DNA of 59,607 bases from Planctomyces sp. (GTDB lineage Bacteria > Planctomycetota > Planctomycetia > Planctomycetales > Planctomycetaceae): contig JAEUIH010000047.1 of the NCBI GenBank assembly GCA_016795105.1, positions 1 to 59,607 on the forward strand. The letters run 5' to 3'. The notes beneath the pieces are model-generated. The model did no database searches and had not been told where the DNA came from. It saw nothing but the letters and a program-made list of their open reading frames with translations. This document shows, piece by piece, positions 48,406 to 59,282 of the stretch; positions within the stretch are counted from its first letter, which is position 1; every line of letters starts with the position of its first letter. The translations under genes were made by a program, and so were the position numbers.

Positions 48406-49629
48406 ATGGTGAATAATCTCGGGGAAAATCAATTCTCGGGGCCGCAATACCGGCTCGGTGATCTTGTGAACTATTTCCTCAGGCTCGGCACAATCGGCTT
48501 TGGCGGGCCAGTGGCACTTGTGGGGTACATGCATCGCGATCTAGTCGAGCGTCGCGGGTGGATTTCCGAGTCCGAATACAAGGAAGGACTGACTTTGGCA
48601 CAGCTCATGCCCGGGCCTTTGGCGGCTCAACTCGCAATCTACCTCGGATACGTTCACTATGGAGTTCTGGGAGCCACACTGGTTGGTGTGACATTTGTGC
48701 TGCCGTCGTTCCTGATGGTTGTAACGCTTGGCTGGGCCTACGTGACATACGGCGGTATCAGCTGGATGCAGGCAGTCTTCTATGGGGTCGGGGCCAGCGT
48801 GATTGGGATCATCACGATCAGCGCTTACAAGCTCACCCAAAAGACCATTGGAACAAATCGCCTGATGTGGGTGATCTATCTTGCCAGCGCCGCAACGACG
48901 GTCATTACTGAGAGCGAAAGTGTCTGGCTGTTTCTTGGAGCAGGATTGATAGTTTGGGCGATCAGAACGCCGCCTCGGAAGAAATCGTCGACTACGGTAA
49001 GTGGAATTGCATTTCCAACGCTGGCCATGGTTTCGGCCGCTAAGGCATCGCTGAATGAGCTGCTCACCCAGATTGCCATCTTCTTTACGAAAGCTGGTGC
49101 TTTTGTTTTTGGCAGCGGCCTTGCCATTGTCCCGTTTCTGTATGGTGGAGTCGTCAAAGAATATGGCTGGCTCAATGATCAGCAGTTTCTGGACGCGGTC
49201 GCAGTGGCCATGATCACGCCAGGGCCAGTCGTCATCACAGTTGGTTTCATTGGATACGTTGTCTCTGCCGAGAGATATGGATTCGGGGCGGGCCTGGCAG
49301 GCGCTTCTGTCGCGGCACTGGCCACATTTCTCCCCTGCTACCTTTTGACCATTATCCCCGCCCCTTATTTCAAAAAGCATGGCAAACGTCCTGGTATTGT
49401 CGCCTTCGTCGACGGCGTTACGGCCGCAGCAGTTGGAGCAATCGCCGGCGCTTGTCTGGTCCTGGGGCGTCGGACCGTGCTTGAAAATGGCTGGACTCCT
49501 GAAATTCCGAAGATTCTCGTTCTGCTGACGACAATAGGCCTGCTGCTGAAGTTCAAAAAACTGTCGGAGCCCATTGTCATTATTGGTGCAGCAATTGTCG
49601 GACTCCTGATCTATCCGTTCGTTCGTTGA
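48406..49629 (+). CDS. chrA: Chromate transporter ChrA, long-chain CHR family
   Basis: A 407-residue membrane protein with two repeats of the CHR domain. LGTIGFGGPVALVGYMHRDLV and AQLMPGPLAAQLAIYLGY appear in the first repeat, GAFVFGSGLAIVPFLYGGVV and ITPGPVVITVGFIGYV in the second. It exports chromate, probably by proton or counter-ion exchange. Two chrB-like genes follow at once, as in chromate-resistance operons. The ATG at 48406 is preceded by a GGATGAAA-like site. Confidence 0.93.
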   Translation: MVNNLGENQFSGPQYRLGDLVNYFLRLGTIGFGGPVALVGYMHRDLVERRGWISESEYKEGLTLAQLMPGPLAAQLAIYLGYVHYGVLGATLVGVTFVLPSFLMVVTLGWAYVTYGGISWMQAVFYGVGASVIGIITISAYKLTQKTIGTNRLMWVIYLASAATTVITESESVWLFLGAGLIVWAIRTPPRKKSSTTVSGIAFPTLAMVSAAKASLNELLTQIAIFFTKAGAFVFGSGLAIVPFLYGGVVKEYGWLNDQQFLDAVAVAMITPGPVVITVGFIGYVVSAERYGFGAGLAGASVAALATFLPCYLLTIIPAPYFKKHGKRPGIVAFVDGVTAAAVGAIAGACLVLGRRTVLENGWTPEIPKILVLLTTIGLLLKFKKLSEPIVIIGAAIVGLLIYPFVR

Positions 49630-49648
49630 TGCCTATCGGAATACGACT

Positions 49649-50074
49649 GTGAAACGCTGGCTGATCCTGATCTACAAGATCCCCCGTGAACCTTCGGCCG
49701 GAAGGGTTCACATCTGGCGGAAGCTTAAGCAGTTGGGAGCCATCGCGTTGCAGGACGCTGCGTGGATTCTACCGCAGACATCGCGAACGAAAGAACAGTT
49801 TCAATGGCTAGCCACAGAAGTCACAGAATTGGGGGGCGAAGCTGTTCTCTACGATGCGGATCAGGTGTATGCGAGCGATCCAGAGGCGCTGAGGGAGCAG
49901 TATTGTGAATTGGTGGATACAGAGTACCGCGAGATTCTCGCAGCATTGAAAAAGAAGGATTGTGACTTAAACGCGTTATCAAAACGCTTTCAGAACGTGC
50001 GGACGCGTGACTATTTCAACTCAGACCTTGGACGAAAGACTCGCGAAAGCCTGCTCTCGGCCGGTGAAAGGTAA
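49649..50074 (+). CDS. ChrB N-terminal domain protein
   Basis: A 141-residue protein corresponding to the first half of ChrB: KRWLILIYKIPREPSAGRVHIWRKLKQLGAIALQDAAWILP is the typical opening, with RDYFNSDLGRKTRESL at the end. ChrB regulates or assists chromate resistance and is thought to sense chromate. Here the halves of ChrB are separate genes. The GTG start at 49649 lies 19 bases after the chrA stop. Confidence 0.87.
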   Translation: MKRWLILIYKIPREPSAGRVHIWRKLKQLGAIALQDAAWILPQTSRTKEQFQWLATEVTELGGEAVLYDADQVYASDPEALREQYCELVDTEYREILAALKKKDCDLNALSKRFQNVRTRDYFNSDLGRKTRESLLSAGER

Positions 50075-50079
50075 GGAAC

Positions 50080-50505
50080 ATGAAGTGGGTCACATGGGAG
50101 AACGTCGGCGTGGATCGAATTGGATGTGCCTGGCTGATCCTTCGCGAAATCGATCCTCATGCGGAATTCGTTTTCATACAAGCCGGAAGTTCAGTGCCAG
50201 CTGATGCAGAGCCATTCGATATTCCTGGCGTGCGGTATTCTCACCACAAAGGCCACTGCTCATTTCATGCATTGGTGGAACAGTATCAGTTGCGTGATCC
50301 CATCCTTCTTCGTATGGCACGCATTGTCGACGAAGCGGACACGATTCAGTCAGCGGCAGTCGAACCAGCCGCGGCTGGGCTTGATCTGATCTGCGAGGGA
50401 CTACGAATGATCAATCCAGATGACGGAACAGCATTGGTGCACGGTCGAATTGTCTACGAGGCGTTATACGCAAAACTGTCGAGCATGGCCGCATATCAAG
50501 AATGA
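50080..50505 (+). CDS. ChrB C-terminal domain protein
   Basis: A 141-residue protein for the second half of ChrB: WVTWENVGVDRIGCAWLILREIDPHAEFVFI and HHKGHCSFHALVEQYQL are family stretches; His and Cys here could bind metal. AAGGA precedes the ATG, which lies five bases after the stop of the N-terminal half. The clean stop, ribosome-binding site and start between them argue for a natural split and not a frameshift. Confidence 0.87.
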   Translation: MKWVTWENVGVDRIGCAWLILREIDPHAEFVFIQAGSSVPADAEPFDIPGVRYSHHKGHCSFHALVEQYQLRDPILLRMARIVDEADTIQSAAVEPAAAGLDLICEGLRMINPDDGTALVHGRIVYEALYAKLSSMAAYQE

Positions 50506-52334: not shown

Positions 52335-52476
52335 ATCTCTGTCTCTCAAGATGGGAAGTGTTGAAGTTGAGGTCTTCGGCAGAAATTTCAATGTGGCACG
52401 TTTGCCATTCTGACACTCATACATTCTAATGACTGTGAGAGTGTTGTTGCAACTGTCTGCGAGAGAGGGCCCTTCG

Positions 52477-53490
52477 ATGCGTCGCCGTGCATTTACTCTG
52501 ATCGAATTGCTTGTGGTGATTGCCATCATTGCAATTCTGATTTCGCTACTATTGCCAGCCGTGCAGCAGGCTCGGGAATCCGCAAGGCGGACTCAGTGCA
52601 AGAACAATCTCAAACAGATCGGGCTGGCCATGCACAACTATGAAGGCACGCATGGCACTTTTCCGCCGAATCTGGTGCCCGGTGGTAACTTCCGATACAG
52701 CGCCGGAAACTGGGGTATTCTCGCGTATTTGAGCCCTTTCATGGAGCAATCAAATGTCTATAACTCAATGAACCTGAACGCACCAACTTATGCTGCGACA
52801 GCTCCGTACCACATTGCTGATCCCGGTAACGCGAACGCGGCGGCGCTCATTATTCCGGCGTATTTGTGCCCTAGCGACAGGTCTCAGTCACTCGGCGGCG
52901 GTTACGGCGTCGCAGCACTTGGTCCGTCAAACTATTGCGGAAATCAGGGCGATGGTATCTATCGCGACGCGGCCGGCGCTCCGGCGAATGGTTCCCCATA
53001 CAACTCCAATGGAGTGACCTTCGCCAATTCCAAAGTGCGAATTGCAATGATCACCGATGGCACCAGCAACACAGCGTGTATTGCGGAAAGCATCCTTGGC
53101 GATCCATCCGCAACGACCAATCGCTCGCCGCAGAAGCAGTATGGTTACCTCACGACCTACCAGAGTTCACTGGATGATGCGTCCTGTGCGGCCCCCGGGG
53201 CGTGGAACATCGCGAATCCTCGACAGTTCCTGTGGTACTCCGGTGAGATTCGCAACACCGCTTACAACCACTATTACACGCCGAACTCAAAGAACTTCGA
53301 CTGCGTCACCAACGCATTCAGCCTCGGATACACAGCCATCGGCTGGAAAGCAGCCCGCAGTATGCACGTCGGTGGTGTTCAGATTCTATTGTGTGATGGA
53401 TCGGCACGATTCATCAGTGACAACATCGACACGGCTACATGGCGAGCACTCGGAACACGCGACGGCGGCGAAGTGATCGGAGAGTTCTGA
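52477..53490 (+). CDS. DUF1559 protein with prepilin-type N-terminus
   Basis: A 337-residue protein beginning [20 protein letters not shown], a prepilin methylation signal followed by a hydrophobic helix, then [32 protein letters not shown], the DUF1559 (SBP_bac_10-like) pattern. Such proteins are the most expanded family in planctomycetes. The residue before the cleavage site is Ala, not the usual Gly, which could lower processing by prepilin peptidase. GAGAGGG precedes the ATG. It ends three bases before the PhyH-like gene and may be co-transcribed with the arsenic-related genes. Confidence 0.92.
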
Positions 53491-53493
53491 CTC

Positions 53494-54297
53494 ATGGCGA
53501 TCACTGCCCAAACAATCGACACAGGACGAACAGCGAAGATTTCGTCCGAACAACTGAAAGCGTATCACGACGATGGCTTCGTCATACTTCGGAGCCTGTT
53601 TTCACCTGCCGAGATGGACTTGATCCAGCAGGAGTGCGATCGTCTGTTGGCGGAATACTCGCAATTCATCGATCCGTTGAACCTTCGATGCCGCTTCATG
53701 CCTCACCACAAGTCGGGTGAGCCGCTCTTCGAAGTGTTTGATCCAGTGAATGACCTGTCGGAACTCCTGCATCAGGTTTGCTTTGACGTGCGAATTACAT
53801 CCGCGCTGGAGGCGATTTATCAGGAGCCTGCAGAGCTATTCAAAGAGAAGCTGATCTACAAAATGCCGGGGGCAAACGGCTATCGTCTGCATCAGGATAT
53901 ACCGCAAAGTTGGCCAGGATGGCCGTGTTCCTTTCTGACGGTTCTGCTGGCAATCGATGGCTGCAGTCGCAGCAACGGCTGCACGGAAGTGTATCGCGGA
54001 TATCATGGCGGATTCCTGTTGGCCGATCCGTCGGAGTACATGCTTTCTGACGACTGTGTTTGTCAAAGTCGGCGCGAGTTTCTGGAACTGGGGTCAGGCG
54101 ATGTGGCGATCTTTCATGGACTGACGCCGCATGGATCGGCCGCGAATCAGTCAGCCGGAACACGAAGAGCGTTTTACATCAGCTACAACGCACGATCGGA
54201 TGGCGGCGACCAGCGACACTCACACTACGACGCATTTCAGGCAATGTTGAAGGATCGTCTGATTCCGGAATCCACGGGCGTTCCCTATTTTCGGTAG
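53494..54297 (+). CDS. Phytanoyl-CoA dioxygenase-family protein
   Basis: A 267-residue Fe(II)/2-oxoglutarate-dependent oxygenase. The metal ligands are H133 and D135 in RLHQDIPQSW and H213 in LTPHGSAANQS, with R224 or R225 in GTRRAFYIS for 2-oxoglutarate. Related enzymes hydroxylate small molecules, lipids and phosphonates. It starts three bases after the DUF1559 stop and precedes an MFS gene by 18 bases. Its position beside an ArsI-like enzyme suggests oxidation of an organic arsenical or a carbon-phosphorus analogue, but the substrate is unknown. Confidence 0.88.
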   Translation: MAITAQTIDTGRTAKISSEQLKAYHDDGFVILRSLFSPAEMDLIQQECDRLLAEYSQFIDPLNLRCRFMPHHKSGEPLFEVFDPVNDLSELLHQVCFDVRITSALEAIYQEPAELFKEKLIYKMPGANGYRLHQDIPQSWPGWPCSFLTVLLAIDGCSRSNGCTEVYRGYHGGFLLADPSEYMLSDDCVCQSRREFLELGSGDVAIFHGLTPHGSAANQSAGTRRAFYISYNARSDGGDQRHSHYDAFQAMLKDRLIPESTGVPYFR

Positions 54298-54315
54298 CCT
54301 GTTTGGGAACGCTTT

Positions 54316-55641
54316 ATGACAACTGCAACATCAACGAAAGCAGGCCAAGAGCCCGTTCGTTACGGCTGGGTGATCGTCATCATTGCTGCTCTGGCAATGG
54401 TTGCGACACTGCCCGGCCGGACTCATGGTCTCGGAATGATCACAGAGCGATTGCTCAACGACCCGGCTCTTCAAATCGATCGACTCTCGTTCAGCGAGAT
54501 CAACTTCTGGGGAACATTGCTCGGTGGTCTGTTTTGTTTGCCCTGCGGCTGGTTGATCGATCGATTTGGACTGCGATTAACGCTGACAGTCACAGTCAGT
54601 GCACTTGCTGTGGTTGTGCTTTGGATGACAAGGCTGACGGGTGGTCGAGAATTTGGCGTCACCGTCATGCTGACGAGAGGATTCGGTCAAAGCGCGTTGT
54701 CGGTCATCAGCATTACGATGGTTGGAAAGTGGTTTGCTCAGCAGACGAGTCTGGCGATGGCTGTCTATTCGTTGTTGTTATCAGTGGGCTTCGCCTACGC
54801 CGCGCAGATTGCGAAACCATGGGCGGAGTCTGACTGGCGAGTCGTCTGGAACGCAATGGGATATTCGCTGGCTGCCTTTGTGCCGGTGTGTCTGTTCTTC
54901 TGTCGAGATCCCAAACCGAGCCACCAGAAATGCTGCGGGGGTTCTCACTCCTTGTCGACGGAAAATCGTGCAGAGGGCAGTTTCACTTTGGCTGAGTCGT
55001 TGCGGACACAAGCGTTCTGGGTTTTTGCACTCGCGACTTCGTTGGTGGGATTGATCGGATCCGGACTTTCTCTGTTTAACGAGTCGGTGCTGACGTCGCA
55101 GGGGTTTTCGAAGGATGTCTTCTATAACCTGATCACGCTTACCGGGACGGTTGGACTTCTTACCAAACTGCCCATTGGATGGATTGGTCAGCGATGTCCC
55201 CTGAACCGCTTGTTGTCGGCGGGACTTCTGTTACAGGCCATCTGTATGGCGACGTTGCCGTTCGTGCGATCACTGCCCGGCATCACGTTGTACGGCGTCG
55301 GAATGGGAGTCTCCGGGACAATCACAACCGTGCTGTTCTTTACAATCTGGAGCCGCGTATTTGGTCGGCAGCATCTGGGGCAAATCCAGTCCGTTGCGCA
55401 ATTGCTGACCGTTGTGGCCTCCGCCGCCGGGCCGGTCATTTTCGCTCGCTGCCTGACACAGTTCGGCAGCTATTCCCCGGCATTCATGATTCTCGCGCTG
55501 ACCTCATGCGGATTCGCTGTTTGGTCCTGGTGCGTTTCCGTGCCAACTTCGTCAGAGCCTTCTCAGAAGTCGAACCACTTACTTAAAACTACATCCAACA
55601 CCGGGCCGCAATCGGCGCTGGTCGAATTGCAGGAGACTTGA
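54316..55641 (+). CDS. Major facilitator superfamily transporter
   Basis: A 441-residue permease with 12 predicted membrane segments. PCGWLIDRFGLRL follows helix 2 (MFS loop 2-3 motif), and LPIGWIGQRCPLNRLL starts the second half. The pattern is like OFA/ACS-type anion permeases. Its neighbours suggest export or import of an arsenical or phosphonate-like anion. It ends two bases before the ArsI-like gene, so the two are certainly co-transcribed. Confidence 0.9.
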   Translation: MTTATSTKAGQEPVRYGWVIVIIAALAMVATLPGRTHGLGMITERLLNDPALQIDRLSFSEINFWGTLLGGLFCLPCGWLIDRFGLRLTLTVTVSALAVVVLWMTRLTGGREFGVTVMLTRGFGQSALSVISITMVGKWFAQQTSLAMAVYSLLLSVGFAYAAQIAKPWAESDWRVVWNAMGYSLAAFVPVCLFFCRDPKPSHQKCCGGSHSLSTENRAEGSFTLAESLRTQAFWVFALATSLVGLIGSGLSLFNESVLTSQGFSKDVFYNLITLTGTVGLLTKLPIGWIGQRCPLNRLLSAGLLLQAICMATLPFVRSLPGITLYGVGMGVSGTITTVLFFTIWSRVFGRQHLGQIQSVAQLLTVVASAAGPVIFARCLTQFGSYSPAFMILALTSCGFAVWSWCVSVPTSSEPSQKSNHLLKTTSNTGPQSALVELQET

Positions 55642-55643
55642 AG

Positions 55644-56756
55644 ATGTCCACCGTCGTACCACTTTCTGTTTCTGTTCCTTTGGAGATTCGAGCGTCAGGG
55701 ACAAGACCGCAACCTTCGGAGACGGGGACGCGTTTTCATCTCTCTTTGAATGTTTCGTGCATCGAACGTGTGTCTTCGTTCCTGCAGCTCGTGTTGGGTG
55801 TAACTCCAGCCAAGTTGCGAGCCGATTATGCGAAGTTCGAACTGGACTCGCCTCCGCTGGTGCTTTCCCTTGAGCCAAACCCGCCGCAGGAGTCCGGGTC
55901 ACTGAATCATTTGGGCTTTCGATTCGCGACAACAGCGGATTTGCTGGACGCACAGAGACGCATCGAGGCTGCAGGAATCTCCACGCAGCGCGAGGAGGGC
56001 GTTGAGTGTTGCTACGCAAAGCAGACCAAGTTCTGGGTCCATGATCCTGATCGGCGTCTGTGGGAGTTTTACGTTCTGGAAGGTGACCTTGAGCATCGGG
56101 GCGGTGGCCAAACGCTGGAACAAATGGGGGGCGATTCCCAATCGTGTGGCCTCGGGATTGAAGCGATCCGACCGGTCATTTGGGAACATCGGATGGGAAG
56201 TGAGTTCGCTTTACCGACCGAACTGGCCGACGAAATTCGGCTACGCGGAACATTCAACGTGCCAATGTCGGACGCGGAGATGACTCGAATTATTCAGGAC
56301 GTATTCAGCAACCTGAAACCAGGCGGTCAGGTGGAACTTCATATGCTGACGAGCGAATCTCCGCTGACTGGTCCAATCGAGTTGCCGGGTCCAGCAGCCT
56401 CTGTGAAACATGTTCCGGTCAGAACCGCATTGCTGCAGCAACTGGCAGCAATTGGGTTCATTGATTGCCGTTTGACGACCTTCCGATCAGGGGCCTGTTT
56501 TCAGTCGAATGGAATCCCGCTCCGGGAGACGAAAATCGTGTCCGTCAAACCGGGGGACTCCCGTGAGTCGAGCCGGACGGACCTTGTTTATCGTGGCCCG
56601 TTTGCGGAAATCAAAGACGACTACGGCACTGTGTGGCGTCGCGGCGAGCTGCAATCGGTGTCATCAATTCGCTGGGAAGAACTTAAGAAAGCGGGCTTCG
56701 AAGCTTCGTTTACAGTGATTCCTCAGACTTCGACGTTCAGTCAATGCGGCACATGA
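55644..56756 (+). CDS. ArsI-like C-As lyase fused to a methyltransferase-like domain
   Basis: A 370-residue two-domain protein. Residues about 30-150 match ArsI, the Fe(II) dioxygenase that cleaves methyl groups from trivalent organoarsenicals: FHLSLNV (H32), ADYAKFELDSPPLVLSL, SLNHLGF (H89), the vicinal C122-C123 in ECCYAKQTKFWVHDPD, and E141 in LWEFYVL. H32, H89 and E141 match the ArsI metal ligands; the Cys pair binds As(III). Residues about 195-305 look like the C-terminal half of a class I methyltransferase (NLKPGGQVELHML), without a visible SAM motif I, and YRGPFAEIKDDYG onward resembles the end of ArsM-like proteins. AGGAG lies eight bases before the ATG. Confidence 0.82.
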   Translation: MSTVVPLSVSVPLEIRASGTRPQPSETGTRFHLSLNVSCIERVSSFLQLVLGVTPAKLRADYAKFELDSPPLVLSLEPNPPQESGSLNHLGFRFATTADLLDAQRRIEAAGISTQREEGVECCYAKQTKFWVHDPDRRLWEFYVLEGDLEHRGGGQTLEQMGGDSQSCGLGIEAIRPVIWEHRMGSEFALPTELADEIRLRGTFNVPMSDAEMTRIIQDVFSNLKPGGQVELHMLTSESPLTGPIELPGPAASVKHVPVRTALLQQLAAIGFIDCRLTTFRSGACFQSNGIPLRETKIVSVKPGDSRESSRTDLVYRGPFAEIKDDYGTVWRRGELQSVSSIRWEELKKAGFEASFTVIPQTSTFSQCGT

Positions 56757-56892
56757 TTTGAGACGACGTCAATTCGGCCAACCGATAACTGTAGTTTGAT
56801 CGCCCGGACAATTGCCTACTCGTTGCGTGGCGATTAACATCATTCGGACAGTCTCATGATCTTCAGATTTTGTTCCTCAATGGCGATTTCTC

Positions 56893-57210
56893 GTGGCACA
56901 GGAAGTTTTTGACGCGAATTTTTGCGCAGAACGTCTCAAGGCGCTGGGTGACCCCCATCGCCTAAAAATCGTGAATGCGCTGCGATACGGCGAACTTACG
57001 GTCGGCGACATTGCAGAACTGCTGGAAGCGGAAGTCGTCACGGTCTCGCACCACTTGAAGATCATGAAGTACGCGAATCTCGTCGAAGTGCGACGCGAAG
57101 GTAGATTCATGTACTACCGTCTTCACGAAGACTTGCAGTGTACGAAAGGCAAAGGAACGAGATTTCTGGATCTCGGCTGCTGCCGTCTGGAAGTTCCGGA
57201 TCCGAAATAG
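56893..57210 (+). CDS. ArsR/SmtB-family repressor with C-terminal Cys pair
   Basis: A 105-residue winged-helix regulator starting at GTG. FCAERLKALGDPHRLKIVNALRYGEL opens the fold; TVGDIAELLEAEVVTVSHHLKIM is the recognition region and RREGRFMYYRLHE the wing. Possible metalloid ligands are C11 and the tail QC...DLGCCRLEVP, a C-terminal Cys pair. Unlike the ArsR at 10495, it has CC in the tail and none in the recognition region. It lies between the ArsI fusion and the CobW gene and probably controls both directions of the cluster. Confidence 0.87.
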   Translation: MAQEVFDANFCAERLKALGDPHRLKIVNALRYGELTVGDIAELLEAEVVTVSHHLKIMKYANLVEVRREGRFMYYRLHEDLQCTKGKGTRFLDLGCCRLEVPDPK

Positions 57211-57291
57211 CTGCAGCCTTACTTAACAACATTGGCATTCCATTGATTGCCACTCGAAACGATCAGGTCACTCAAAGAAGAAAAGAAGTCG

Positions 57292-58383
57292 ATGAAGCCC
57301 GTTTATATCATGGTCGGTGGATTTCTCGGTGCAGGAAAGACGTCCACCATTTCCCGACTTGCCCGTCATTACATGAGCCAGGGGAAAAAGGTGGGGATTG
57401 TGACCAATGACCAGACCACGGACCTGGTAGATACTCAGAGTCTGCGGTCTCAGGGCTTTGATGTGGGCGAAGTCGCAGGATCGTGTTTCTGCTGCAACTT
57501 CAATGCCTTGACGTCGACTGTTGAGGGTCTCGGTGAAGGTGAACTTCCGGACATTATCCTCGCGGAGCCGGTTGGCAGTTGCACAGACCTTGTGGCTACA
57601 GTGATTCGACCGTTGACGGAAGTCTATGGAGTTCCACTGGATATCTCACCGTACGGAGTCATCCTGAAACCAAGTCATGGTCTGAGAATTCTGCGTGGCG
57701 AAGCGACCAGCGGATTCTCACCGAAAGCGAACTACATCTTCCGCAAACAGATTGAAGAAGCCGATTTTGTCGTCATCAACCGCGTGGATGAGTTGTCTGC
57801 AGCGGATGTCTCTGAATTGCAGTCGCTGATTGAAAAAGAGTACCCGGGCCGTCCCGTGTTGCGATGTTCAGCAAAGACCGGCGAGGGTTTTGGTGCTCTC
57901 GTCGAAACCCTGGCACTGCGTGGTCAGTTTGGCAAAAGAGTGATGGAGGTTGATTACGACATCTACGCGGAAGGTGAAGCGGAGCTGGGATGGCTCAACA
58001 GTCAGGTTGTTGTCGAATCAAAGCAGGAATTCGAACTAGATCACTTGCTGATGGATTTGATTCGTCGCCTGCACGCTCGACTGCTATCCGCCAGTGCTGA
58101 GGCTGCTCATTTGAAAGTGATCTGTCTGTGTGACACCAGCTACGCCGTCGCGAATGTAGTGAGCAATCAGACCGGCCCGGAACTTTCCCTCGCATCCGAG
58201 ACGAAAACGGCGGCGGCAAATGTCGTCGTCAATGCCCGTGTCGCGATTGATCCGGCCGAACTTGAGGTCATGGTCCGGGATGAACTGGAGTCCGTGACAA
58301 AGGCCATCGGAGCAACTCAGAACGTCGTTTCTTTGCAGAGCTTTCGTCCAGGGCGTCCGGTGCCGACGCATCGCATTTCCTAG
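57292..58383 (+). CDS. CobW/COG0523-type GTPase metallochaperone
   Basis: A 363-residue G3E-family GTPase. Walker A is GGFLGAGKTS (9-18); the metal site GSCFCCNF has C65, C67 and C68 as in the CxCC motif; GTP specificity is shown by INRVDEL. The family moves zinc, cobalt or iron to target enzymes. Here the client may be the Fe-dependent ArsI-like or PhyH-like protein, a speculation from position. The ATG at 57292 follows an A-rich AAGAAG site; longer frames begin at 57247. Confidence 0.9.
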   Translation: MKPVYIMVGGFLGAGKTSTISRLARHYMSQGKKVGIVTNDQTTDLVDTQSLRSQGFDVGEVAGSCFCCNFNALTSTVEGLGEGELPDIILAEPVGSCTDLVATVIRPLTEVYGVPLDISPYGVILKPSHGLRILRGEATSGFSPKANYIFRKQIEEADFVVINRVDELSAADVSELQSLIEKEYPGRPVLRCSAKTGEGFGALVETLALRGQFGKRVMEVDYDIYAEGEAELGWLNSQVVVESKQEFELDHLLMDLIRRLHARLLSASAEAAHLKVICLCDTSYAVANVVSNQTGPELSLASETKTAAANVVVNARVAIDPAELEVMVRDELESVTKAIGATQNVVSLQSFRPGRPVPTHRIS

Positions 58384-58418
58384 AACTGTTTCATGGGGTT
58401 CCTTTAAGGAGTTTCAAC

Positions 58419-59282
58419 ATGGCTGTCCGTGTGATTCTGGTGTTGCTGAGCTTGCTGGCCACATTGAATGCGTCTGCCTCTGCAGAGACTCCTGACAAGG
58501 ATGCTCTGACGTTAATCGTGATGGACCCGCTTTCCGCCCCTCTTGCGTGTGATTGTGTCAAAGGATATGCCCAACGCGATTACGAAGCGTTAGCTGCATT
58601 TCTGAAACAGAGGTTGAATCAGGATGTGAATGTTGTATTCGCTGAGTCGCTCACGGAGGCCATGGAAAAGTCTGAAGGCAAAGTGGATCTGATCGCCGGA
58701 AAGCACTCCGTCGTTCTGGCGGATGCCAAAGAGTCAGCGAAATCCGTGAGGCCAATTGCTCGTCTGACGGATCTGAAAGACTCCATCACCCAGACCGGAT
58801 TGATTGTTGTTCGTTCCGGAGATGCAGCCAAGTCCGTGGCGGATTTGAAAGGCTACCGGATTCTGTTTGGCCCGGCCGATTGTGATGAGAAATCGAAAGC
58901 AGCAATCGCGCTGTTGAAGAAAAACGGTGTCGCGATTCCAGACAAAATCGAAGTCGCGGCCTCCTGCAGTGAAGCCGCCGTCACGATGGTGGAACTTCCC
59001 GCTGAAACAAAAGTGGCCGCCGTTGTTTCAAGCTACGCAACCCCTTTGCTTGAGGGCTGCGGGAAAGTTAAGAAAGGCGAATTGCGGATCATCGGAGAGA
59101 CTGAGCCCGTGGAGTTCATCACTCTCTTCGCGACAGATTCTTTGTCCGGAGATCGTCTCACAAAGGTCAGGTCGGCCATCGATGAAGTCGGCCTCGAAGC
59201 AAACCTGTTGATCAGGTTGGAAACGGCCTCTGGCTTCCAACTCTGCAATGAACAGACCGGTGCCGTTCTGACTGCAAAATAA
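58419..59282 (+). CDS. PhnD-like periplasmic binding protein with Cys residues
   Basis: A 287-residue exported solute-binding protein. The signal ILVLLSLLATLNASASAE is followed by TLIVMDPLSAPLACDCVKGYAQRDYEALAAFLKQRL, a PhnD/SsuA-type opening, then YRILFGPADCDEKSKAAIALLKKNG. It carries a C44-x-C46 pair and single Cys around residues 183, 195, 230 and 275, uncommon in phosphonate binders. AioX, the arsenite-sensing partner of the AioSR system, is a PhnD homologue with a required Cys, so an arsenic-binding role is attractive. AAGGAG precedes the ATG. Confidence 0.8.
   Translation: MAVRVILVLLSLLATLNASASAETPDKDALTLIVMDPLSAPLACDCVKGYAQRDYEALAAFLKQRLNQDVNVVFAESLTEAMEKSEGKVDLIAGKHSVVLADAKESAKSVRPIARLTDLKDSITQTGLIVVRSGDAAKSVADLKGYRILFGPADCDEKSKAAIALLKKNGVAIPDKIEVAASCSEAAVTMVELPAETKVAAVVSSYATPLLEGCGKVKKGELRIIGETEPVEFITLFATDSLSGDRLTKVRSAIDEVGLEANLLIRLETASGFQLCNEQTGAVLTAK

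Follow-up and report, generated by a model that had tools for sequence, protein, structure and literature searches.

Do the seven genes at the end of a planctomycete contig, which bring an ArsI-like protein and an ArsR regulator together with a second oxygenase, a transporter, a surface protein, a CobW-type GTPase and a PhnD-like protein, form a system for the breakdown of organic arsenic compounds? The genes are located on contig JAEUIH010000047.1 of Planctomyces sp. (assembly GCA_016795105.1). This contig, referred to as the window, was analysed over its whole length of 59,607 nucleotides; it is part of a draft genome of 8.9 Mb and ends 325 bases downstream of the phnD-like gene, so that the cluster could extend further. 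A plasmid origin was discarded, with zero matches in a plasmid collection. All seven open reading frames (ORFs) are intact on the plus strand between positions 52477 and 59282, with intergenic gaps of 3, 18, 2, 136, 81 and 35 bases, in exact agreement with a preliminary description of the sequence, which had treated them as a single seven-gene arsenic-related cluster. The genes fall into two units with a common operator. Unit A, encoding a DUF1559 protein, a PhyH-type oxygenase, an MFS transporter and a chimera of a VOC domain of the ArsI type with half of ArsM, is a widely conserved core, and unit B, encoding ArsR and CobW and here also the PhnD-like protein, is a separate pair which accompanies the core in part of the genomes. 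As far as the families and their regulation are concerned, the arsenic reading has good support. The fuller interpretation, a single ArsR regulon of two transcription units by which an organoarsenical is taken in and the carbon groups are stripped from its arsenic, has in our estimate about an even chance of being correct, with dimethylarsenicals or arsenosugars as the leading guess for the substrate.

The window proteins were assigned to domains by Pfam and NCBIfam profile scans, which upheld the names of the preliminary description except for "methyltransferase", where only the C-terminal half of ArsM, devoid of the S-adenosylmethionine (SAM) motif, was identified. The N-terminal half of the chimera reaches 120.8 bits with the ArsI/CadI model NF041414, as compared to at most 14.5 bits with the next VOC models. 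All 31 aligned chimera homologues match NF041414 at E<=0.001, and 27 of the 31 match an ArsM model. Kinship with glyoxalases unrelated to arsenic had been named beforehand as the point on which an arsenic role could fail; the VOC half lies nearer to ArsI, its best match among the PDB sequences being the C-As lyase TcArsI (E=1e-20) and the next unrelated family being FosA (E=0.04). H32, H89, E141, C121-C122 and K129 of the chimera align with Q, H, E, CC and K of TcArsI, residues which we take to include the metal ligands and the vicinal cysteines of that enzyme.

The C-terminal half matches the ArsM profile with 31 bits at profile positions 186-336 of 356, below a cut-off of 500 bits; the full-length ArsM of the same genome itself reaches only 340 bits. 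It aligns with residues 164-337 of this ArsM, whose SAM motif at position 65 lies outside the aligned region, and in this alignment SAM-binding motif I was not found in the ArsM half of the chimera. Because this motif is missing from the sequence, methylation by the ArsM half appears unlikely, and the active methyltransferase fusion assumed at the outset was abandoned. For the AlphaFold model of the chimera (pLDDT 82, pTM 0.48), the first 13 Foldseek matches in the PDB are all C-As lyase or ArsM/AS3MT structures, with low TM-scores for the whole model because each match spans one half. Sequence and model together indicate that the chimera is an ArsI domain standing where the SAM-binding half of ArsM would be. 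In a tree of the VOC domains, the support was too low to tell whether the fusion had a single origin.

For the distribution of the chimera, 170 genomes of the order and, separately, named species genomes (the best 80 of 161 related stretches) were used. A chimera match at E<=1e-15 was identified in 56 of the 170 genomes, many of these matches covering only the VOC domain, and both halves were present in 33. A strong relative of the PhyH protein (E<1e-25) is present in 31 of these 33 genomes as compared to 1 of the 137 others (Fisher p=2e-30), where the line was drawn at a gap in the match table and nine further genomes lie below it with weak matches of about 71 bits or fewer. The exceptions comprise a genome with PhyH on a 4.0-kb contig (G073), one in which the contig stops within the MFS gene (G127) and one with a partial, decayed-looking locus (G107). 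In the last of these (L056, G107:C530:2085-3669), the chimera and MFS genes look truncated and PhyH is absent, so that it is probably a decaying copy. The proposal that a second oxygenase is part of the arsenic set is supported by the way in which PhyH tracks the chimera. H133, D135, H213 and R225, together with several basic residues, are identical in all 24 aligned PhyH relatives, R225 presumably being the arginine that binds 2-oxoglutarate. The PhyH model (pLDDT 92) gave Foldseek matches including PHYHD1, proline hydroxylase and EctD. The top NCBIfam match is methylphosphonate hydroxylase of the PhnY type, matched by all 24 members. A phosphonate substrate was considered and rejected, as its sole support is this distant resemblance to PhnY and the name of PhnD; a phosphonate operon was not found in the conserved neighbourhood.

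Among 31 neighbourhoods around chimera homologues (L036-L066), several of which are broken off by contig ends, the order DUF1559-PhyH-MFS-chimera on one strand was found in 15, and ArsR lies directly 3' of the chimera in 16. The 80 loci from named species genomes belong mostly to Planctomycetota, then to Verrucomicrobia, with a few from proteobacterial metagenome-assembled genomes (MAGs). One planctomycete-type cluster occurs in a MAG labelled Bacteroidales (L099), which is likely a binning or labelling error. Over all 80 loci, PhyH was counted in 62, MFS in 68, DUF1559 in 43 and a TonB-dependent receptor in 11. Further neighbourhood counts were restricted to the 41 loci with flanks of 6 kb or more upstream and 1.5 kb or more downstream; here PhyH is present in 34, MFS in 38 and both in 31, DUF1559 in 25, the TonB receptor in 10, ArsR in 25, CobW in 8 (5 of them as one ORF with the chimera) and tandem chimeras in 10. 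Membership is kept and the gene order varies, DUF1559-MFS-PhyH-chimera having also been seen. At L144 and L146, which come from proteobacterial MAGs, only PhyH and the chimera were seen, with a converging ArsM-like gene adjacent. The conservation demanded of the cluster from the beginning holds in so far as the core recurs in many genomes; the conserved unit consists of four genes, often with the regulator, and not of seven. Of the two expected neighbours of ArsI in other planctomycetes, PhyH is recurrent and PhnD is rarely linked.

All six ArsI residues are kept in 73 of the 102 domain matches of the named loci, a total that takes in fragments and the first copies of tandem pairs. In such pairs, the first copy usually lacks the second cysteine (HHCG) or is altered further, and the partner copy retains CC. 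One HHCG copy instead of HHCC was identified in the tandem chimeras of L117, L120, L124, L125, L127, L129, L136, L142 and L143. In several tandem-chimera loci, genes for DUF1549/1553, DUF1501 and EF-hand proteins follow directly.

The two units are further connected by their putative operator. Both begin at the inverted repeat ACATTCTnAnnnnnnTnAGAATGT, and the core pattern TCTNANNNNNNTNAGA is common to the regions upstream of arsR and of the DUF1559 gene. In the window, TCTNANNNNNNTNAGA has exactly two matches at an expectation of 0.77, and two were reached in 19 of 100 shuffles, so this count alone means little and the positions of the sites carry the weight. Three loci which had served to recognise the motif (L076, L077 and L136) were excluded, and 77 of the 80 were scored. 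They contain 21 sites in 1.017 Mb. Twelve of these precede DUF1559 by 100 bp or less, a region comprising 0.4% of the bases (P=1.6e-23, an optimistic value given that related genomes contributed some of the loci). With the limit set at 150 bp, 15 of the 21 sites precede DUF1559, the TonB receptor, PhyH or ArsR, and none precedes MFS or the chimera. Over 23 sites, the palindrome runs on into flanks that the pattern does not fix (ACATTCT...AGAATGT). A scan of the own genome with up to 2 mismatches gave 30 sites as compared to 7 for a reversed-pattern control; at 1 mismatch two sites were obtained, the window site and C11:121030. The latter lies on the 3' side of a DUF1559 gene.

The regulator contains C11, C96 and C97, which are invariant in all 24 aligned ArsR proteins; to our knowledge, this geometry has not been characterized. 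From the sequence, an arsenic ligand is likely. With the ArsI-type residues, the ArsM-derived half, the three-cysteine ArsR and the shared operator, the arsenic theme of the preliminary description stands.

Unit B also occurs on its own. A second ArsR-CobW copy is present in the own genome (contig C369), both proteins being 88% identical, and stand-alone pairs were found in L159, L160, L161, L164 and L169. About 150 bp upstream of arsR in L159 and L160 there is a sequence that resembles the promoter of DUF1559 and contains its operator, which is exact in L160 and has one mismatch in L159; a core that was lost may have left this sequence behind. Relative to the core, CobW is placed downstream (window, L036, L040), convergent (L055), nearby (L121, L122) or fused to the chimera, the last in 5 of the 80 loci, all Verrucomicrobia MAGs. 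In these (L130, L133, L135, L140 and L145), a single ORF for ArsI, half-ArsM and CobW lies behind the TonB receptor, PhyH and MFS. The fusion and the varied placements by the core show that CobW, as had been supposed, is a genuine partner, if an optional one. Its sequence contains CFCC, in line with CxCC, which we take to be the motif of CobW/COG0523 proteins. In genome G125, a contig end carrying PhnD-CobW and the start of another contig, on which ArsR is divergent from DUF1559-PhyH-MFS and two chimeras, overlap by exactly 88 bases. It is likely, on the basis of these sequences, that the same unit B (proteins 92-97% identical) stands there beside chimeras only 31-37% identical to that of the window; the join is likely and not certain, since another ArsR-CobW copy is present in G125.

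Of all the members PhnD is the weakest, and its place in the cluster is doubtful. A relative occurs in 44 of the 170 genomes of the order, and among the five PhnD loci that were opened (window, L157, L158, L165 and L167), CobW adjoins only in the window and in L158. The PhnD-like protein had been presented as a possible arsenite binder similar to AioX, structures of which are presumably deposited in the PDB. No match to PDB sequences was obtained at E<=0.01, AioX included, and a role as arsenite sensor was dropped.

Features of units A and B in the window and the evidence for each
Feature	Position	Strand	Evidence
Operator 1	52425..52440	none	inverted repeat TCTAATGACTGTGAGA; DUF1559 ATG follows after 36 bp; opens unit A
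DUF1559 (PF07596 SBP_bac_10), pseudopilin-like surface protein	52477..53490	+	Pfam 196 bits; N-methylation motif; H-X9-DG
PhyH-type Fe(II)/2-oxoglutarate oxygenase	53494..54297	+	Pfam 82 bits; H133, D135, H213, R225 invariant
MFS transporter	54316..55641	+	MFS_1 79 bits; distant likeness to lactate/oxalate-formate carriers
ArsI/half-ArsM chimera, 370 aa	55644..56756	+	ArsI_CadI VOC NF041414 120.8 bits (cut-off 116)
VOC (ArsI) half of chimera	55731..56093	+	H32, H89, E141, C121-C122, K129
C-terminal ArsM half of chimera	56181..56723	+	homology starts past SAM motif I; ArsM/AS3MT structure matches
Operator 2	56852..56867	none	inverted repeat TCTCATGATCTTCAGA; arsR follows after 25 bp; opens unit B
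ArsR/SmtB regulator, GTG start	56893..57210	+	NF033788 88.5 bits (cut-off 55); C11, C96-C97
CobW/COG0523 G3E GTPase	57292..58383	+	cobW Pfam 70.9 bits (cut-off 20.7)
PhnD-like substrate-binding protein, accessory, rarely linked	58419..59282	+	Phosphonate-bd 66.6 bits

Upstream of the cluster, the window contains on the plus strand (48406-50505) a gene for the chromate transporter ChrA, followed by ChrB as two genes, ChrB_N (49649-50074) and ChrB_C (50080-50505), with 5 bases between them. These genes and the arsenic cluster are set apart by ORFs on the minus strand.

The first position of the core is held by two different surface proteins. DUF1559 and the TonB-dependent receptor were never found together: in the 41 loci there are 25 of the former and 10 of the latter, so that 35 contain either and 0 contain both (p=7e-6), and both occur together in 0 of all 80 loci (p=8e-5). 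This exclusion partly follows taxonomy; four loci with the receptor are labelled as planctomycetes (L105, L112, L121 and L126). Eight of the 10 receptors immediately precede PhyH on its strand, and two are divergent (L121, L126). The three receptors that were scanned have plug and barrel domains and are siderophore-like; that of L105 reaches 313.6 bits with a siderophore receptor model (cut-off 223.5), and those of L145 and L150 remain under the cut-off. DUF1559 has been described as a functionally uncharacterised family, the 68 copies of which form the biggest paralog group of Planctopirus limnophila, in the part of that work available to us (PMC10632474), and is termed a solute binding protein family in a passage of another (PMC2754498). 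In the own genome, 53 DUF1559 (PF07596) domain matches were counted.

From these components a pathway can be proposed. DUF1559, or the TonB-dependent receptor elsewhere, would capture the organoarsenical, and the MFS permease would move it. PhyH might then hydroxylate a carbon on a pentavalent dialkylated arsenical, by analogy with methylphosphonate hydroxylase, and the resulting hydroxyalkyl-arsenic would be unstable, as is expected of As-CH2OH chemistry, and would decay to a trivalent mono-alkyl arsenical and an aldehyde. Cleavage of C-As bonds is the known chemistry of the ArsI family, and the ArsI half, in which H32, H89 and E141 would bind Fe(II) and C121-C122 the arsenical, is predicted to cut the last C-As bond and to release As(III). 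By this analogy, PhyH followed by the ArsI half appears as a sensible order for the two oxygenases. The SAM-less ArsM half could be an arsenical-binding or docking module, and CobW could be a metallochaperone or GTP-dependent partner. Repression by ArsR would act on both units through the common repeat and would be lifted when a thiophilic arsenical binds the three cysteines. The As(III) product may undergo renewed methylation or leave the cell through the MFS transporter, since the genome has neither Acr3 nor ArsB and holds two ArsM-ArsS loci of the arsenosugar type, on contigs C389 (G000, L002) and C177 (G000, L003). Of these, the ArsM of L003 alone was profile-scanned, and the ArsS query passes its own model with 461 bits (cut-off 300). 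A more specific version, which we consider unlikely but worth stating, is a dedicated aerobic system for the import and mineralisation of multiply alkylated arsenicals such as dimethylarsenate or algal arsenosugars. PhyH would be the missing oxidative dealkylase for dialkyl-arsenic, the chimera would finish the reaction, and DUF1559 would be a surface receptor in the TonB receptor's stead; in tandem pairs, dialkyl As(III), for which a single thiolate is needed, may be handled by the HHCG copy, and mono-alkyl As(III), for which two are needed, by the CC copy.

Several observations weigh against a regulon for organoarsenical uptake and dealkylation. Neither Acr3 nor ArsB, for the removal of As(III), was found in the own genome. 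The score of the window PhyH with the methylphosphonate hydroxylase model is 69 bits at a cut-off of 500, and this model may rank first because NCBIfam holds few PhyH models. PhyH is missing from 7 of the 41 loci, 6 of which have tandem chimeras (p=0.0003). The idea of the tandem CG copy as a substitute for PhyH was set aside as only a lead, Limnoglobus and Zavarzinella holding another locus with PhyH. With relatives in 143 of the 170 genomes, CobW says little by its presence alone. An exact operator lies within 120 bp upstream of only 1 of the 11 scored TonB receptors (L105), that of L134 having a site about 200 bp off, and exact sites are absent at many DUF1559 loci. ArsR could sense another soft metal: among solved structures SmtB, NmtR and CzrA come closest to it, and two chains that bear the name ArsR (6j05 and 6j0e) rank lower. 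Finally, an association of the chimera with ArsS was absent (15 of 33 as compared to 57 of 137 genomes, p=0.70, in the 170 genomes of the order). This argues against a role in arsenosugar synthesis, a partnership that was ruled out on this ground, and leaves external organoarsenicals as the substrate.

Among the other explanations, pure detoxification survives best, although we regard it as rather unlikely. Here the cluster would be a defence against methylarsenite-like arsenicals produced by neighbours; ArsI would cleave them inside the cell, MFS would export the product and PhyH would treat a second arsenical, with no deliberate import. Without Acr3 and ArsB the task of export could fall to MFS, which has a weak match to the ArsJ exporter (19.5 bits at a cut-off of 400). 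However, the better profile matches of this protein are lactate and oxalate/formate carriers (no match was found among PDB sequences), and uptake is indicated by the siderophore-type TonB receptor that accompanies the core in 10 of the 41 loci and by the solute-binding designation of DUF1559 in the portion of PMC2754498 referred to above.

Biosynthesis of an organoarsenical or of a metal-binding compound, in which the chimera would hold or transfer arsenic without cleaving C-As bonds, is improbable. PhyH enzymes are common in natural-product pathways, further structural neighbours of the window PhyH being SnoN, SnoK, GriE and MysH, and the ArsM-like genes in L144 and L146 adjoin PhyH and the chimera. 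Yet the cluster has no conserved enzyme forming C-As bonds, the ArsM half lacks its SAM motif, ArsS is not associated, and the complete set of ArsI residues favours cleavage. We place at the same low level the proposal of a metallophore or trace-metal system unrelated to arsenic, with an ArsI-like half binding a thiophilic metal, CobW as metallochaperone and import through TonB. Such a system would suit the siderophore-type receptor, CobW, the SmtB/NmtR-like regulator and the ArsR-CobW pairs that stand alone elsewhere, but the VOC half is specifically ArsI-like and is joined to half of ArsM, which gives two independent arsenic signatures. A chance neighbourhood of seven unrelated genes, to which the frequency of CobW and DUF1559 in these genomes and the seldom linked PhnD might point, is very improbable in view of the co-occurrence, the reordered genes with kept membership, the fusion and the shared operator, which leave only PhnD in doubt.

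An ArsI-based uptake and dealkylation regulon would share parts with several known systems. The ArsI C-As lyases (TcArsI and those of Bacillus MD1 and Nostoc) have the same VOC fold, metal ligands and vicinal cysteines and a neighbouring ArsR; solved ArsI, however, is one small domain of about 126 residues, whereas the protein described here is a 370-aa fusion with a SAM-less half-ArsM. ArsI is encoded in ars operons, in contrast to the present position beside a 2-oxoglutarate oxygenase, MFS and a surface or TonB protein. In arsenosugar-type ArsM, the C-terminal half is homologous to that of the chimera over about 173 residues, including the motif YxGPF..DDxG..xRG, but the cysteine of SGCLSG has no counterpart in the chimera consensus, and SAM motif I and the N-terminal half are replaced by the ArsI domain. 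The methylphosphonate hydroxylase PhnY shares the PhyH fold, HxD...H and the arginine, whereas the PhyH subfamily of the window is tied to the chimera. Similar pairs of ArsR/SmtB and CobW (COG0523), with the arrangement of unit B, occur elsewhere within this bacterial order; here the pair is beside the core or divergent from it, or CobW is fused to the core.

According to the part of a report on ArsI available to us, the enzyme cleaves the C-As bonds of methylated As(III) derivatives and sits in ars operons, and Nostoc ArsI is said to demethylate As(V) derivatives too (PMC6205960), in which case a separate oxidising step would be less needed. Pelagibacter likewise imports and demethylates methylarsenicals, and an ArsI-like domain is there part of the larger protein CsdB; as far as the accessible text goes, it demethylates dimethylarsenate with the enzyme uncertain, phnD is increased about 2-fold with dimethylarsenate, and PhyH, DUF1559 or a TonB receptor and an ArsR operon are not named (PMC6426599). 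The mechanism of dimethylarsenic demethylation was termed unclear in the available part of another paper, with an anaerobic methanogen route known for dimethylarsenite (PMC10579292). A description of the ArsI/ArsM chimera or of the cluster was not found in searches of an open-access library, outside of which most subscription papers and bioRxiv preprints lie.

For the biology of these bacteria, the operon offers expressible candidates for the unexplained demethylation of dimethylated arsenic, some of them in Zavarzinella formosa DSM 19928 and Limnoglobus roseus PX52. That a TonB receptor can occupy the operon position of DUF1559 is a concrete clue to the function of this family, and the operator provides a handle for finding further members of the regulon. 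If the proposed pathway is true, the cluster may include the unknown enzyme for the aerobic breakdown of dimethylated arsenic.

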